NCBI GenBank assembly: GCA_031265825.1
Contig: JAISCD010000082.1
Coordinates: 1 to 41,687, forward strand
DNA from: Treponema sp.
GTDB lineage: Bacteria; Spirochaetota; Spirochaetia; Treponematales; Breznakiellaceae
DNA: 41,687 nucleotides
Direction: 5' to 3'
Below, piece after piece: positions 22,125 through 27,600 of this stretch. Each line of letters begins with the position of its first letter. Position 1 is the stretch's first letter. Below the pieces are notes generated by a model that saw nothing but the letters and a program-made list of their open reading frames with translations, was not told where the DNA came from and did not search any database. A program made the position numbers and the translations under genes.

Positions 22125-22382
22125 ATCATTGCATTTTTCTGTTTACAAGATAATTTTAAGGCTGGTTTCGTCTAACCGCAAAACGGTAATGCTGGAAATT
22201 TACGCGCACTGATCTGGAGCGTATGTGCGCGCTATTATAACGTCATGGGCGTACTTTGAATCATTCAAATTGACATCGCTGGTCTTCTTTCAAGCGTATA
22301 AAAAGCGACACCGGGCAATGGACGGAGTGAGGCGGCGGTGTCTGACACTAAAGGCAGGTAAGCCAGCGTCTATACACGCTAT

Positions 22383-22800
22383 AGTCGTGAACTTGCGGAG
22401 GGTAGCCGTGAACTTGCGGAGGGTAGCCGTGGACTTGCGGGGGATAGCCGCGGACTCGCGGGCTATAGCCGTGGACTCGCGGGCTATAGCCATGGGTTTA
22501 CGGGGCTTAGCCGTGAAGTTGCGGAGGGTAGCCCCGAACTTGCGGGCTTTAGCCGTGGACTTGCGGGCTATAGCCGTGGGTTTACGGGCTTTAGCCGTGG
22601 ACTCGCGGGTTCTAGCCGTGAAGTTGGGGAGACTAGCCCCGAACTTGCGGGCTTTAGCCGTGGACTTGCGGGCTATAGCCGTGGGTTTACGGGCTTTAGC
22701 CGTGGACTCGCGGAGGTTAGCCGTGGACTCGCGGAGGTTAGCCGTGGGTTTGTGGAGGATGGCCGTGAAGTCGCGGGGGATAGCCCCTGATACGTCTGAT
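22383..22800. repeat. Tandem array B2, about 20 units of 21 bp
   Basis: Units have the form TAGCCGTGGACTTGCGGG with interchangeable variants (GAACTTGCGG, GGGTTTACGG, GAAGTTGCGG). It is the inverted relative of array B1. A higher-order 105-bp (five-unit) block is duplicated, with starts at 22531 and 22636. The plus strand is open from 22225 to 22833 and encodes heptads such as LRALAVD and LRAIAVG; the minus strand is also open. There is no ribosome-binding site, so coding status is unclear. The stretch 22125-22380 before it holds no recognisable gene. Confidence 0.9.
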
Positions 22801-23184
22801 ACCAAGGAAGCCGATCCATTGGGAAGTCGTTAAACACGCTATGCGTGCCGAAGGGTGTGGGGGGGGGGAGCGGAAGACCGCGCAAGCGCGGGCGGGAGCG
22901 TGGGGGGCGCGACACAAGGACATCTGATTCTCCGTTTAGGGAAAGACGCGCCCCCCTCATACTAGTGATTAGTTAGCAGTTAGTAGTTAGCAAAGATCCC
23001 GCGCTTCGATATCTTTTCCTAGTTCACTCGTCTTCTTTTGCTCATTGCTCTTTACTATTTGCTCTTTTTTATTTGAACACCGAGCAGGTTACGCTTGCAA
23101 GGCAAGCGTAACCGTCAAGACGGGGACAGCGGAGCCACCTTTCGTACAACGCCCGTTAAGAAGTCGTTAAACACCCGAAGGGTG
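22800..23184. repeat. Mosaic palindromic repeat, copy 5, with ten-G run
   Basis: It starts with GAAGTCGTTAAACACGC, then the GC-rich module with a run of ten G (22859-22868), GAGCGGAAGACCGCG and GGGCGCGACACAAGG. From 23080 a full standard copy follows: GAGCAGGTTACGCTTGC/AAGGCAAGCGTAACC, GTCAAGACGGGGACAGCGG, TTTCGTACAACGCCCGTTAA, GAAGTCGTTAAACACCCGAAGGG. Its end overlaps the last codons of the UroD-family gene. Between the two lies simple TTAGCAGTTAGTAGTTAGC sequence. Confidence 0.75.
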
Positions 23185-24154
23185 TTCGTGTCCATTGTAG
23201 GTGTTGAATATCAATATCGCGGGGAACAGTACAATCCGCGCCGAGAATAACACCTTTCACGCCGCTTTCCACCAACAGACGTTCCGTTTCAGCCTCTATT
23301 TCTTCCCGCGAGCCTCTGTAGAGCACGCCGTTTTTCGTGTTATCAAACCCGCCGATGATCGGCTTGTTCCTGAAGAGCTTTTTCCCCTGTCCCAGAGAAA
23401 CGCCCTCCACCGTTACAGCCCAGTTGACGATTTGCGCCGGATAATCAATGAAATGCGCCAAATTGTTCCGATGCCCCGCATAACCACAGATGTGGAGGAT
23501 GTTATATTGACTGAGGCTATTCGCGGCGTTCAAGACGATCATATCATTCGCCTCGACCAATATCCGACGTGTTCGTTTAGACGTTTTACCGCCGCTTATG
23601 TCTTGGGTACTGTAGTAGATGCCTGACGCCCCGCCTTCGCGGATTATCCGATTGACAAGGGTAACGGTGTCTTTTGCAACCACGTTAAACGCATATCCGA
23701 CCGCCTCCGCGTCTTCGTCAATGAAAGCGGCGAGCGTTTCTTCAGCACTACCGCCCCTCGCAAACCTGAAGAGTGCGGCCGGGGCGAATGTGTTGTAAAA
23801 ACTTAAAACCTCGTCTCCCCAAACGTCGGCGAGCGTTTTGGCGAAGGCGACCTGTTTCTCTATCCACGGGTGGTTTTCGCCGATGGACTTCACATCTCTC
23901 AAATCCGCGGCTTTTTTCGCGTTTTGGAAAGCCTCGTCAGGGTATACAAAGAAACCGTCCGTCATTATCTTGACGAAATCAGGCTTAAATTCCGCGTAAA
24001 ACTTCTTGTGTCCCTCAATATTTATATCAAAAATCGCGGGATTCTTGAAGCCATCTTCTTTTTCATCCTCCGCGTAATGAAACCAAAATCCCACCGGCGT
24101 ACGTTCCGCCTTTTCGTTATCAAACACCCGCTTTAGCAACGCTGTTTTTGTCAT
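23156..24154 (-). CDS. Uroporphyrinogen decarboxylase / corrinoid methyltransferase family protein
   Basis: The 332-residue protein belongs to the UroD superfamily, closer to MtaA/MtbA-type cobalamin methyltransferases than to haem-pathway UroD. It has HICG (His221, Cys223) and GADCTVP (Cys308), matching the HxC...C zinc site of methyltransferases. The N-terminal UroD arginine motif is weak (ERTPVGFWFHY). No corrinoid-protein gene is adjacent, so the substrate is open. The last ten residues (RTPFGCLTTS) are read from the mosaic repeat. A Shine-Dalgarno AAGGAG precedes the ATG, and the promoter lies in a direct repeat shared with the toxin-antitoxin unit. Confidence 0.82.
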   Translation of the reverse strand: MTKTALLKRVFDNEKAERTPVGFWFHYAEDEKEDGFKNPAIFDINIEGHKKFYAEFKPDFVKIMTDGFFVYPDEAFQNAKKAADLRDVKSIGENHPWIEKQVAFAKTLADVWGDEVLSFYNTFAPAALFRFARGGSAEETLAAFIDEDAEAVGYAFNVVAKDTVTLVNRIIREGGASGIYYSTQDISGGKTSKRTRRILVEANDMIVLNAANSLSQYNILHICGYAGHRNNLAHFIDYPAQIVNWAVTVEGVSLGQGKKLFRNKPIIGGFDNTKNGVLYRGSREEIEAETERLLVESGVKGVILGADCTVPRDIDIQHLQWTRTPFGCLTTS

Positions 24155-24170
24155 TTTCTCTCCTTTACCT

Positions 24171-24225
24171 TTAGTTTACGCGAATCACCCTATAGGGTCA
24201 AGCGTCAATTATCCCGCTTACCAGC
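24171..24225 (-). promoter_or_regulatory. Direct repeat copy 1: promoter with 12-bp palindrome, for the UroD-family gene
   Basis: On the minus strand TTGACC (24196-24201) and TAAACT (24173-24178) are 17 bases apart. The spacer region holds the perfect palindrome ACCCTATAGGGT (24187-24198), a possible operator. Transcription would start near 24166, 12 bases before the ATG. The whole 55-bp segment recurs at 24856-24911. Confidence 0.65.
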
Positions 24226-24245
24226 GGCGAGGTTTATCCATATTA

Positions 24246-24620
24246 TTATATTTTGTATAATGATATTTCAGGAATAAACCTAAAATCTGATATATTCAAC
24301 GTAACCAGCGTCGTATTATTTATTATTGCTGTCGCCGCAATTATCGCATCATTTATAAACAGGTTATGGCTTTTATTATATTTGAATATGAGTTCGTATG
24401 CCGTTTCTGATATTTTTTCATTGATGTTTACCATTTCGATTTTCCTGAAGGCTTTTTGTATATTTTCTATTTCTTTTTTATTCCTTGCACCTAATATCAA
24501 TTCCATCATGGTTATTATTGACATTTTCAAATGATTTCTTTTATCTTTGCCGATAAAATCTATGTTTTTATTTCCACGCAGATGATCGATTAATATACAC
24601 GAATCAATTAAGTAGTTCAA
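24246..24620 (-). CDS. vapC: PIN-domain toxin, VapC-type
   Basis: This 124-residue PIN-domain protein would be a ribonuclease toxin. The acidic active-site residues are in place: Asp6 (LIDSCILIDHL), Glu40 (ITMMELILG), Asp91 (INDAIIAATA) and Asp112 (ISDFRF). It follows the antitoxin gene with a four-base overlap, the usual type II arrangement. Both genes are strongly AT-rich compared with their surroundings, consistent with recent acquisition. The target RNA cannot be told from sequence. Confidence 0.9.
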   Translation of the reverse strand: MNYLIDSCILIDHLRGNKNIDFIGKDKRNHLKMSIITMMELILGARNKKEIENIQKAFRKIEMVNINEKISETAYELIFKYNKSHNLFINDAIIAATAIINNTTLVTLNISDFRFIPEISLYKI

Positions 24621-24829
24621 TTTTGTCTCCAGACCTTTGCCCTTAGTGTTTCTTTATTTATGTCATAGTCTTTCCATAAACCAAAGACAGATTGAATGGG
24701 ATCGTCCTCTTCGGTGGTTTTGTCTGAGTTGAGATATAATTTCTCTATTTTTTTAATGAAAATATTTCTTTCTTTTTCATTAAGCCCGTTTACTTCGGAA
24801 ATAATTCTGTCTACTTCTTTCAACACCAT
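24617..24829 (-). CDS. Antitoxin of the VapC-type toxin
   Basis: This 70-residue protein precedes the toxin and overlaps it at ATGA. It has a helical N-terminal half (EVDRIISEVNGLNEKERNIFIKKI) and a C-terminal segment GLWKDYDINKETLRAKVW. The latter resembles the toxin-binding tail common in small antitoxins next to PIN proteins. A clear DNA-binding motif is not visible, but the N-terminal part could dimerise. A Shine-Dalgarno GGAGAG precedes the ATG. Confidence 0.82.
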   Translation of the reverse strand: MVLKEVDRIISEVNGLNEKERNIFIKKIEKLYLNSDKTTEEDDPIQSVFGLWKDYDINKETLRAKVWRQN

Positions 24830-24855
24830 AATAACTCTCCATCCTGCCTATTCCA

Positions 24856-24911
24856 TTAGTTTACGCGAATCGCCCTATAGGGTCAAGCGTCAATTACCCC
24901 CGCTTGCCAGC
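24856..24911 (-). promoter_or_regulatory. Direct repeat copy 2: promoter of the toxin-antitoxin operon
   Basis: This 56-bp segment differs from copy 1 by two substitutions (A to G), one T-to-C change and one extra C. It keeps TTGACC (24881-24886), 17 bases, TAAACT (24858-24863) and the inner palindrome CCCTATAGGG. Transcription would start near 24851, 22 bases before the antitoxin ATG. The two copies bracket the AT-rich genes. Confidence 0.65.
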
Positions 24912-24919
24912 AAAGAGCA

Positions 24920-25175
24920 AAGACGGGCGGCGGTATCAGACAACGTGGAGGCTCCGCTTGCGTGCCTTCGGGTGTGGGGGGTAGCGTAAGACCGTGCAAG
25001 CGGACTGGAGCGAGGGGGGCGCACCACAAGGGCGCCTGTGTGTCGACCTCCGTTGTGGAAAACCGCGCCCCTCCTTATTATGCCTGTACGACTTCGCTTC
25101 GCTTGTCGGGGTCAGCGGGTCCCCTTTTCAAACAACACCCCGTATGAAGTTGTCTAACACCCGAAGGGTGTTACC
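24920..25175. repeat. Mosaic palindromic repeat, copy 6
   Basis: The order is GGTATCAGACAACG, the GC-rich module (GTGGGGGGTAGCGTAAGACC, GGGGGGCGCACCACAAGGGC, CCTCCGTTGTGGAAAACCGC), GTCGGGGTCAGCGGG, TTTCAAACAACACCCCG and GAAGTTGTCTAACACCCGAA. Within the module GGGGCGC/GCGCCCC and ACCACAA/TTGTGG arms can pair into a long stem. No gene is seen in 24912-25298. Confidence 0.75.
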
Positions 25176-25298
25176 ATGAAGTCAAATAAGAAAAGGGGGT
25201 CCTTAACTATGTTTCTGTTGACGAGACGCAGGGGTTTGAAACAGCACCCCGCCGACAGGCTGTTGAAGTCGCGGCGGGAATGTTGTTTGCGCGGGGCG

Positions 25299-26447
25299 CT
25301 AAAGCAGTTTAAGATACAGGGCTTTTATGTCTTCTATCGTGGGATCCTTCGGATTACCCGGACGGCAGGCGTCCGCCATGGCGCTTTCCGCGAGGAATGG
25401 GACTTCTTCTTTTTTTGCAATCGTTTTAAGATCACGGGGAATTCCAACGTCAAGAGACAGCTGTTGAACCGCGTCGATGGCGGCTTTGCGATATTCCGCC
25501 TGACTCATCTTGTCCACGTCGGGTACGCCCATCGCCTTCGCAATATCGCGGTATTTTTTGGTGGTGGCCTCGGCGTTGTAGTCCATGACTGTGGGCAGTA
25601 GAATGGCGTTTGCAACACCGTGGGGCGTGTCATATACCGCGCCAAGCGGGTGCGCCATAGCATGTACAAGCCCCAGCCCTACATTGGAAAAGCCCATGCC
25701 CGCAATATACTGCCCCAAAGCCATGCCTTCGCGTCCGGCACTTTCGTTGTTCACCGCACCGCGTAGACATGTTGAGATAATCTCAATCGCCCTAAGATGC
25801 ATCATGTCTGTCATTTCCCATGCGCCCTTGGTGATATAGCCTTCAATGGCGTGGGTCAGGGCATCCATGCCGGTTGCCGCAGTCAGTCCTTTTGGCATGG
25901 AAGCCATCATGTCCGGGTCAACCACCGCCACATCGGGAATATCATGTACATCAACGCACACAAACTTACGCCGTTTTTCCACATCGGTGATGACATAGTT
26001 AATGGTAACTTCCGCCGCTGTTCCGGCCGTGGTTGGTACGGCGATGGTGAATACCGCTTTGTTTTTGGTTGGCGCGACCCCTTCCAGGCTACGAATATCC
26101 GCGAATTCCGGGTTGGCGACGACGATGCCGATGGCTTTTGCCGTGTCAATAGCCGAACCACCGCCGACCGCGATGATACAATCCGCGCCGCTTGTCTTGA
26201 ACGCGGCAATTCCTTTTTGAACGTTTTCGATGGTTGGATTTGCCTTCAAATCGCTGAACACATCGTAGGCGATACCTGCCTTATCCAAAAGGGACGTAAC
26301 TTTGCCGCTTACTCCGAATTTAATGAGATCCGGATCCGCGCAGACAAAGACTTTCTTAAAGTTATGCCCTTTTACCTCATTAGCGATTTCCTCAATCGCA
26401 CCCTTTCCATGATAGGAAACCGGGTTTAATACAATTCTACGTGCCAT
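25299..26447 (-). CDS. fucO: Lactaldehyde reductase (1,2-propanediol oxidoreductase)
   Basis: This group III iron-dependent alcohol dehydrogenase reduces L-lactaldehyde to 1,2-propanediol in fucose and rhamnose fermentation. It closely follows FucO over its length (382 residues): GGGSAIDTAKAIGI for cofactor binding, PTTAGTAAEVTINYVITDVE, and the iron ligands Asp195, His199 (MDALTHAIEGYIT), His262 (LVHAMAH) and His276 (TPHGVANAILLP). No fucose or rhamnose pathway genes are adjacent, so it may act on lactaldehyde made elsewhere. AAGGAG precedes the ATG. The promoter is strong, and the message would begin with a stable stem-loop. Confidence 0.93.
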   Translation of the reverse strand: MARRIVLNPVSYHGKGAIEEIANEVKGHNFKKVFVCADPDLIKFGVSGKVTSLLDKAGIAYDVFSDLKANPTIENVQKGIAAFKTSGADCIIAVGGGSAIDTAKAIGIVVANPEFADIRSLEGVAPTKNKAVFTIAVPTTAGTAAEVTINYVITDVEKRRKFVCVDVHDIPDVAVVDPDMMASMPKGLTAATGMDALTHAIEGYITKGAWEMTDMMHLRAIEIISTCLRGAVNNESAGREGMALGQYIAGMGFSNVGLGLVHAMAHPLGAVYDTPHGVANAILLPTVMDYNAEATTKKYRDIAKAMGVPDVDKMSQAEYRKAAIDAVQQLSLDVGIPRDLKTIAKKEEVPFLAESAMADACRPGNPKDPTIEDIKALYLKLL

Positions 26448-26474
26448 AACACGCTCCTTAAAATGATTTTTATG

Positions 26475-26547
26475 GAGGCTTTCCCAAAACTGAAGTTTTG
26501 AAAGAGCCTCTATAAAGAACTATATACCCTGTGGAGTGTATTGTCAA
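26475..26547 (-). promoter_or_regulatory. fucO promoter with 5'-terminal stem-loop
   Basis: On the minus strand TTGACA (26542-26547) and TATAGT (26519-26524) are 17 bases apart, predicting a start near 26512. A stem-loop then occupies 26510-26475: outer arm GAGGCTC/GAGGCT region and inner arm CAAAACT/AGTTTTG around a two-base loop. It would form at the very 5' end of the mRNA, about 15 bases before the ribosome-binding site region. Confidence 0.75.
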
Positions 26548-26579
26548 ATTTTTTATACTTTTTTTGATAAGAAAGCGGT

Positions 26580-26940
26580 GACCGCAATGAGCAATGACGA
26601 GACGTGCGGCGGTGTCAGAGACGTGGCGTGCGCGTGAGAGAAAGCAATGAGCAATGACGGGCAGGCGGTGCCAGACAACGCGGAGGAACCCCGCTTGTTT
26701 ACAAGCGTAGCCGTCAAGACGAGGTCAGCGGCACTTCCTTTCGTACAACGCCCCCGTGTGAAGTCGTCAAATACCCGAAGGGTGCAAGCGAGGAGCCGTC
26801 CTGTCGGGGATAGCGACCTCTTCTTCTAACACCGAGTAGGTTCCGCTTGTTTACAAGCGTAACCGTCAAGACGGGGACAGCGGGTCTACCTTTCGTACAA
26901 CAACCATTGTGAAGTCGTCTAACACCCGAAGGGTGTTGCA
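26580..26940. repeat. Mosaic palindromic repeat, copy 7 (two standard units in tandem)
   Basis: This is the clearest example. Unit one (about 26668-26785) and unit two (about 26828-26940) each show CCGCTTGTTTACAAGCGT, CCGTCAAGACG(G/A)GG, CAGCGG, CTTTCGTACAAC, GAAGTCGTC and ACACCCGAAGGGTG. Two GCAATGAGCAATGACG tracts precede them. Its last bases supply the -35 box of the downstream gene. No gene is seen in 26448-26973. Confidence 0.8.
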
Positions 26941-26964
26941 TAAAGTCTGGTTTTCTGGTATTTT
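26936..26964 (+). promoter_or_regulatory. Promoter of the YrdC/YciO-family gene, -35 box within a repeat
   Basis: TTGCAT (26936-26941), formed at the repeat end, and TATTTT (26959-26964) are 17 bases apart. Transcription would start near 26971, leaving a three-base leader before the ATG at 26974. Confidence 0.5.
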
Positions 26965-26973
26965 TGAAACGTT

Positions 26974-27600
26974 ATGATAAGGTATGTGATTCCAAACAAT
27001 ATTGACGATAGGATTTTATCCCAAGGCGCTCAAATCCTCAACGAAGGAGGGCTCTTGGCTGTTCCAACAGATACAAGTTGGGCGATAGTCTGTTCTTTTA
27101 AGTCAAAAGAAGGCATCAAGAAACTGCGGAACATATCAAAAGAACGAGACGAACAGCATTTTACCCTGTTGTGTTCGGAATTATCCCAATTCAGCGAGCT
27201 TTGTAGCCTTAACAATAGCCATTTTCGGCTTATAAACCGCCTTGCGCCCGGTCCTTATGTGTTCATCCTCAAGACCTTTCTCAATACAGAGAAGGCGTTG
27301 AACCTCAAGCGGCGGGAAATCGGCGTGCGTATCCCAGACAGCCCCATACCCATCGCCCTTGTAAGAGAACTAGGTTCCCCCCTCTACTCGATAACCGCGA
27401 AACGCTCCATGCTCCCCGCAGAACCCGCGTTTAACAGCGAAGAAGACGATCCAAGAGACCAACTCTTTGAAGCCGGATGGGAAATGGAAGATATAAATGG
27501 GATTGACCTTATACTCGATAGCGGCGTAGAGCAGGAACGGGTGTTTTCAACGGTTTTAGACATAAGCGGAGACGAAGTAACACTCATCCGTCAGGGATAA
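26974..27600 (+). CDS. YrdC/YciO/Sua5-family protein (threonylcarbamoyl-AMP synthase-like)
   Basis: The 208-residue protein has the YrdC fold used to make threonylcarbamoyl-AMP for tRNA t6A modification. Matching elements are GGLLAVPTDTSWAIVCS, KKLRNISKERDEQHFTLL, LAPGPYVFILK, VGVRIPDS-like GVRIPDSPIPIAL, and SITAKRS near the centre. The normally basic KxR...S substrate-binding segment is present in part (ISKERDEQHF where TsaC has KRP). This makes it more YciO-like, so it may not be the true TsaC. It is followed after four bases by cls, in the same operon. Confidence 0.82.
   Translation: MIRYVIPNNIDDRILSQGAQILNEGGLLAVPTDTSWAIVCSFKSKEGIKKLRNISKERDEQHFTLLCSELSQFSELCSLNNSHFRLINRLAPGPYVFILKTFLNTEKALNLKRREIGVRIPDSPIPIALVRELGSPLYSITAKRSMLPAEPAFNSEEDDPRDQLFEAGWEMEDINGIDLILDSGVEQERVFSTVLDISGDEVTLIRQG

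Follow-up and report, generated by a model that had tools for sequence, protein, structure and literature searches.

The DNA analyzed here, which we call the window, is a whole stretch of 41,687 nt (contig JAISCD010000082.1, assembly GCA_031265825.1) from Treponema sp., a gut spirochaete. Its own assembly is fragmented, with 1,809,209 bases (1.81 Mb) in 117 contigs, and is 57% complete. Within the window, a VapBC-type toxin-antitoxin pair lies between two copies of a direct repeat, upstream of a gene of the UroD family (Table 1). The GC content of the pair is ~29–31%, compared with ~48–57% around it.

The toxin is a VapC-like PIN protein with PDB matches to VapC chains (best E 5e-9), and a small antitoxin gene lies directly upstream and overlaps its start, an arrangement common to the window and its relatives. 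In having a PIN toxin and a small, overlapping upstream antitoxin, the pair resembles the type II VapBC family. It differs from that family in that its antitoxin matches no scanned family and its native promoter has been lost. For the antitoxin, we obtained no Pfam match above the cut-off, no PHROG match, and no reliable NCBIfam match, and these scans recognized no DNA-binding domain or family. A structure model of the antitoxin was all-helical and of low confidence (mean pLDDT 63), and its sequence matches in the PDB were weak, fell on unrelated proteins, and were taken as chance. Compared with the nearest relative (L093), the toxin had a dN of 0.031 and a dS of 0.444 (dN/dS ~0.07), and the antitoxin had a dN/dS of ~0.17. 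These low ratios indicate that purifying selection has acted on both genes of the pair for at least part of the history of the two lineages. No relative of the toxin was present in plasmid, phage, or viral collections, and viral contigs held no copy of the 20-nt box.

Table 1. Position, strand, and basis of the features at the toxin-antitoxin locus (window coordinates)
Feature	Position	Strand	Basis or remark
UroD-family gene, 332 aa, host gene downstream of copy A	23156..24154	-	PF01208, E 2e-9
Repeat copy A, putative promoter of the UroD-family gene	24162..24225	-	Gapped alignment to copy B and ungapped match
Promoter core of copy A, TTGACC-17-TAAACT	24173..24201	-	Homolog present as a single promoter in each of G011, G010, and G009
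Palindrome CCCTATAGGG in copy A	24188..24197		Not conserved in congeners or related pairs
Segment between the copies, 621 nt, with the pair but not its native promoter	24226..24846	-	Borders from the gapped alignment
VapC-like PIN toxin, 124 aa, TTG start overlapping the antitoxin stop	24246..24620	-	PF01850, E 3e-13
Antitoxin, 70 aa	24617..24829	-	72–84% identical relatives adjoining toxins at six loci
Repeat copy B, putative captured promoter ahead of the antitoxin	24847..24911	-	Gapped and ungapped match to copy A
Promoter core of copy B, TTGACC-17-TAAACT	24858..24886	-	23/29 identical to the G011 promoter
Palindrome CCCTATAGGG in copy B	24873..24882		Identical to the copy A palindrome

A reading of this DNA from its sequence only had described a 55/56-bp promoter-bearing repeat around the AT-rich pair. 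Gapped alignment confirmed this repeat and put it at ~64/65 nt, with one gap and a score of 92 (the maximum in 100 shuffles was 30). Without gaps, positions 24162–24215 and 24847–24900 match over 54 nt at 91% identity, with a spacing of 685 nt. The 29-mer TTGACCCTATAGGGYGATTCGCGTAAACT, allowing up to three mismatches, occurred at two sites in the window, at none in 100 shuffles, and at none in 58 relatives. Across the own assembly, the 29-nt core was found at two sites only, both of them the window copies, which rules out a dispersed element. The neighboring 100-bp and 68-bp dispersed repeats are separate from the promoter repeat. The former (~100 bp, 24970–25071) adjoins copy B and has at least 40 further copies at 75–92% identity in the own genome, 40 of 296 candidates having been scored; the latter, which contains AACACCCGAAGGGTGTT, lies at 25105–25172 and 23121–23186 and has ~35 further matches in that genome. 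The window also holds, at 22290–22833, an array of 21-bp units whose copies match a 140-nt reference at 60–87% identity; it is free of stops in overlapping frames of both strands. Scanning the window for Rfam families and tRNAs returned no match.

Both repeat copies scored as sigma-70-like promoters (9/12). The -10 box of copy A is 18 nt ahead of the UroD-family ATG (24173 to 24154), and that of copy B is 28 nt ahead of the antitoxin ATG (24858 to 24829), so each copy stands in promoter position. Both units, the pair and the UroD-family gene, can probably be switched on from their own promoter copies, and we infer that copy B drives the pair.

Congeners offered a view of the locus without the pair. 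The UroD-family gene is present in 4 of the 12 genomes of the genus, the window's included, and the orthologues in 3 of the 11 other congeners (G011, G010, and G009) are 83–87% identical. Each of these three has one related promoter box, based on TTGACCTT and with the same 17-nt spacer, 59–70 nt before the gene. Copy B agreed with the G011, G010, and G009 promoters at 23, 19, and 20 of 29 positions, respectively, and none of 1,000 shuffles did as well in any comparison; copy A agreed at 22, 18, and 21 positions, with 0, 5, and 0 of 1,000 shuffles as good. Because plain local alignment reached significance with G011 alone and was at best marginal with the other two, homology of the G010 and G009 promoters rests on the ungapped match together with position. 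Searching 11–19 kb with each congener's own 29-mer (up to nine mismatches) revealed no second copy, save one nine-mismatch site elsewhere in L024; the G011 contig extends only 252 nt upstream of its gene. No toxin relative was found in the three genomes at E 0.001. These comparisons show the repeat to be the ancestral UroD-family promoter.

We also surveyed the UroD family more broadly, using the best 30 loci, the window included, from the 52 matching genomes among 195 in the family. A toxin or antitoxin match was found at the window only and near none of the other 29, where 8 of the 30 loci have <1.5 kb of upstream DNA and one of these 8 has a single base. The notion of a single-copy empty site in relatives held in part: each of the three congeners carrying the gene has a single promoter copy and lacks the pair, but no base-perfect empty site was found, as the sequence upstream of copy B did not match G011, G010, or G009 above shuffles. 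In G010 (L023, 2637–2819), the UroD-family gene and a YrdC-family gene point away from each other across ~180 nt; their counterparts in the window are separated by 2.8 kb (24154–26974) that contain an iron alcohol dehydrogenase in addition to the pair.

Relatives of the pair, in turn, pointed to a promoter that is missing here. A scan of genome contigs yielded eight toxin relatives, six of them 80–92% identical over the matched part, from assemblies of Treponema or Spirochaetia; among the six, L096 matches the first 73 residues only. The antitoxins of these six have another promoter upstream, with TTGAAT, TTGCAT, or TTGACT and an AT-rich spacer and -10, the hexamers having been chosen by eye on the alignment. 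The likeness of the window to these relatives starts ~13 nt before the antitoxin ATG, at the ribosome-binding site ATGGAGAGTTATT, and fades within ~10 nt beyond the toxin stop. The repeat copies nearly abut the pair, at ~4 nt and ~12 nt from its borders. Since the likeness is confined to the stretch from ATGGAGAGTTATT on, the window pair is without its own promoter. We read this to mean that the pair lost its native promoter and took that of the host gene, which kept a copy. The earlier proposal that the insertion duplicated or captured the host promoter is thus supported from two sides, by the three of three congeners that have a single copy and no pair and by the absence here of the promoter native to the six relatives.

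The reading we favor, with a probability of about 0.7, is that a VapBC-type pair landed between the UroD-family promoter and coding sequence, that its native promoter was lost and the host promoter doubled, and that both units are transcribed. The pair would have been acquired horizontally and inserted in this lineage only. Insertion would have removed the native promoter and left that of the host as copy B, serving the antitoxin, and copy A, serving the host gene. Transcription of both units would then start from near-identical sigma-70-type promoters. Capture of the host promoter with duplication is the simplest reading of the locus.

Alternatively, a site-specific recombinase could have inserted the pair as a mobile cassette, with the repeats as its attachment or cassette recombination sites. 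VapBC-type pairs related to the window pair do look mobile. Toxin-antitoxin cassettes of chromosomal integrons are described as carrying their own promoters (PMC11023631), and three of the six close relatives of the pair resemble them in having adjoining attC-like half-sites. These half-sites, at 3391 in L091, 2619 and 3397 in L094, and 2621 in L096, suggest integron cassettes. The window pair, however, differs from such cassettes in being without a half-site and in having lost its own promoter. One attC-like consensus was tried, which is descriptive because it was taken from the relatives' own loci, and it found no half-site with up to four mismatches in the window. The 14 window proteins scanned with Pfam, a subset of the window's genes, included neither a recombinase nor a transposase, and an inverted repeat pair of at least 14 nt was not found at the borders. 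In congeners that lack the pair, the repeat is the host-gene promoter. With no half-site found in the window by this consensus and the repeat matching the congener host promoter, an integron attC origin of the repeat was rejected, and we consider cassette insertion in general to be improbable.

Direct repeats as such are common around these pairs. In a survey of flanks, 6 of 14 other pairs (L029, L030, L032, L033, L036, and L092) had a direct repeat scoring above all 100 shuffles; L096 was left out because its toxin is cut short. The repeat at L032 is only 13 nt long, and that at L092 has dispersed copies in its genome. At L030 (G033), the 3′ end of the toxin gene together with the sequence just beyond it, 54 nt in all, recurs unchanged upstream of the antitoxin of the same pair (1164–1217 and 1835–1888). 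A ParDE-like pair in Microcystis aeruginosa PCC 7806 is fenced by 152-bp direct repeats (PMC7935541); as in the window, the pair is a small type II system, and the direct repeats on either side have an inverted repeat within them. However, the Microcystis repeats lie 147 and 120 bp from the pair and are not called promoters in the part of that account drawn on here, whereas those of the window nearly abut the pair and are the promoter of the host gene. What is particular to the window is that the repeat is the promoter of the neighbor.

The sequence-only reading had further raised the possibility that both units come under one regulator, perhaps the antitoxin. On this view, the antitoxin, alone or with the toxin, would bind CCCTATAGGG in both copies and so control the host gene along with its own operon. 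Autorepression is frequent among type II antitoxins, and the palindrome is identical in copies A and B. A weak further sign is CCCTATGGG, which lies just upstream of the antitoxin and near the promoter in the distant pair of G033 (L030). Still, CCCTATAGGG with up to two mismatches did not occur in the 250-nt upstream regions of any of the six related antitoxins or the three congener UroD-family genes, and its two sites in 41.7 kb (up to one mismatch) are unremarkable alone (22/100 shuffles). Across the own genome, the 14-mer TTGACCCTATAGGG with up to two mismatches had 13 matches, two of them copies A and B, compared with ~11.6 expected uniformly, and therefore no genome-wide excess over that expectation; the backward control of the 14-mer had 4 matches. 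The all-helical antitoxin model and the lack of a recognized DNA-binding family in the scans likewise count against this idea. This left common antitoxin control unsupported, and we regard it as quite improbable. The palindrome is better viewed as a by-product of the promoter sequence of this lineage than as an antitoxin operator. A common promoter alone may make both units respond alike, without antitoxin binding.

It is very improbable that the promoter moved in the other direction, with the pair bringing it along and the host gene acquiring it from the pair. Copy B does keep two bases shared with G011 that are changed in copy A (the C in GGCGATT and the T in CTAATGG), but congeners that lack the pair also have the promoter at their host gene, and the six relatives of the pair are without CCCTATAGGG upstream and have different promoters. 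An assembly artefact or chance, which the fragmented and incomplete assembly might invite, is the least credible explanation of all given that the copies differ at several positions, have distinct flanks, and score far above shuffles, and that the downstream neighbors of the host gene are the same in the window, G011, and G009.

Returning to capture of the host promoter, we infer that templated repair or illegitimate tandem duplication produced the second copy, which was retained because each unit needs a promoter. Either process is a likelier origin of the repeat than an attachment site. Tandem duplication would need a second step that removed the first copy of the pair, and a remnant of such a copy was looked for upstream of copy B and not found. 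A single templated-repair insertion that copied ~65 nt would account for the arrangement in one step. GGAGAG occurs at the ribosome-binding sites of both the host gene and the pair and is a possible micro-homology. We also considered an insert copied from RNA, as the likeness to relatives starts near the predicted start of the native transcript, but rejected this idea because any working promoter fusion sets the border there. Illegitimate tandem duplication has been reported to activate transferred genes through promoter capture (Zhang et al. 2024, PMC11111574). There, as proposed for our locus, a silent incoming gene is activated by joining a nearby promoter, in some cases through tandem duplication without homology. 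The window differs in that the duplication covers the promoter only (~65 nt), the incoming genes form a toxin-antitoxin pair, a copy remains with the host gene, and the case is natural rather than selected in the laboratory.

Overall, the window probably holds a clean, lineage-specific promoter capture and not a new control system. A palindrome common to two promoters need not be an operator, as the copying of one promoter suffices. The locus would be a natural example of a selfish pair that settles in a chromosome, loses its own promoter, and takes one from its host, with the host gene staying alive because the promoter was doubled. A broader and, in our estimate, unlikely proposition is that promoterless toxin-antitoxin pairs can enter hosts by insertions that copy the target promoter (~65 nt), such that guest and host both keep start sites. 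If true, recombination between the promoter copies could restore the host locus, and addiction modules would have a general route for settling inside promoters without harm.
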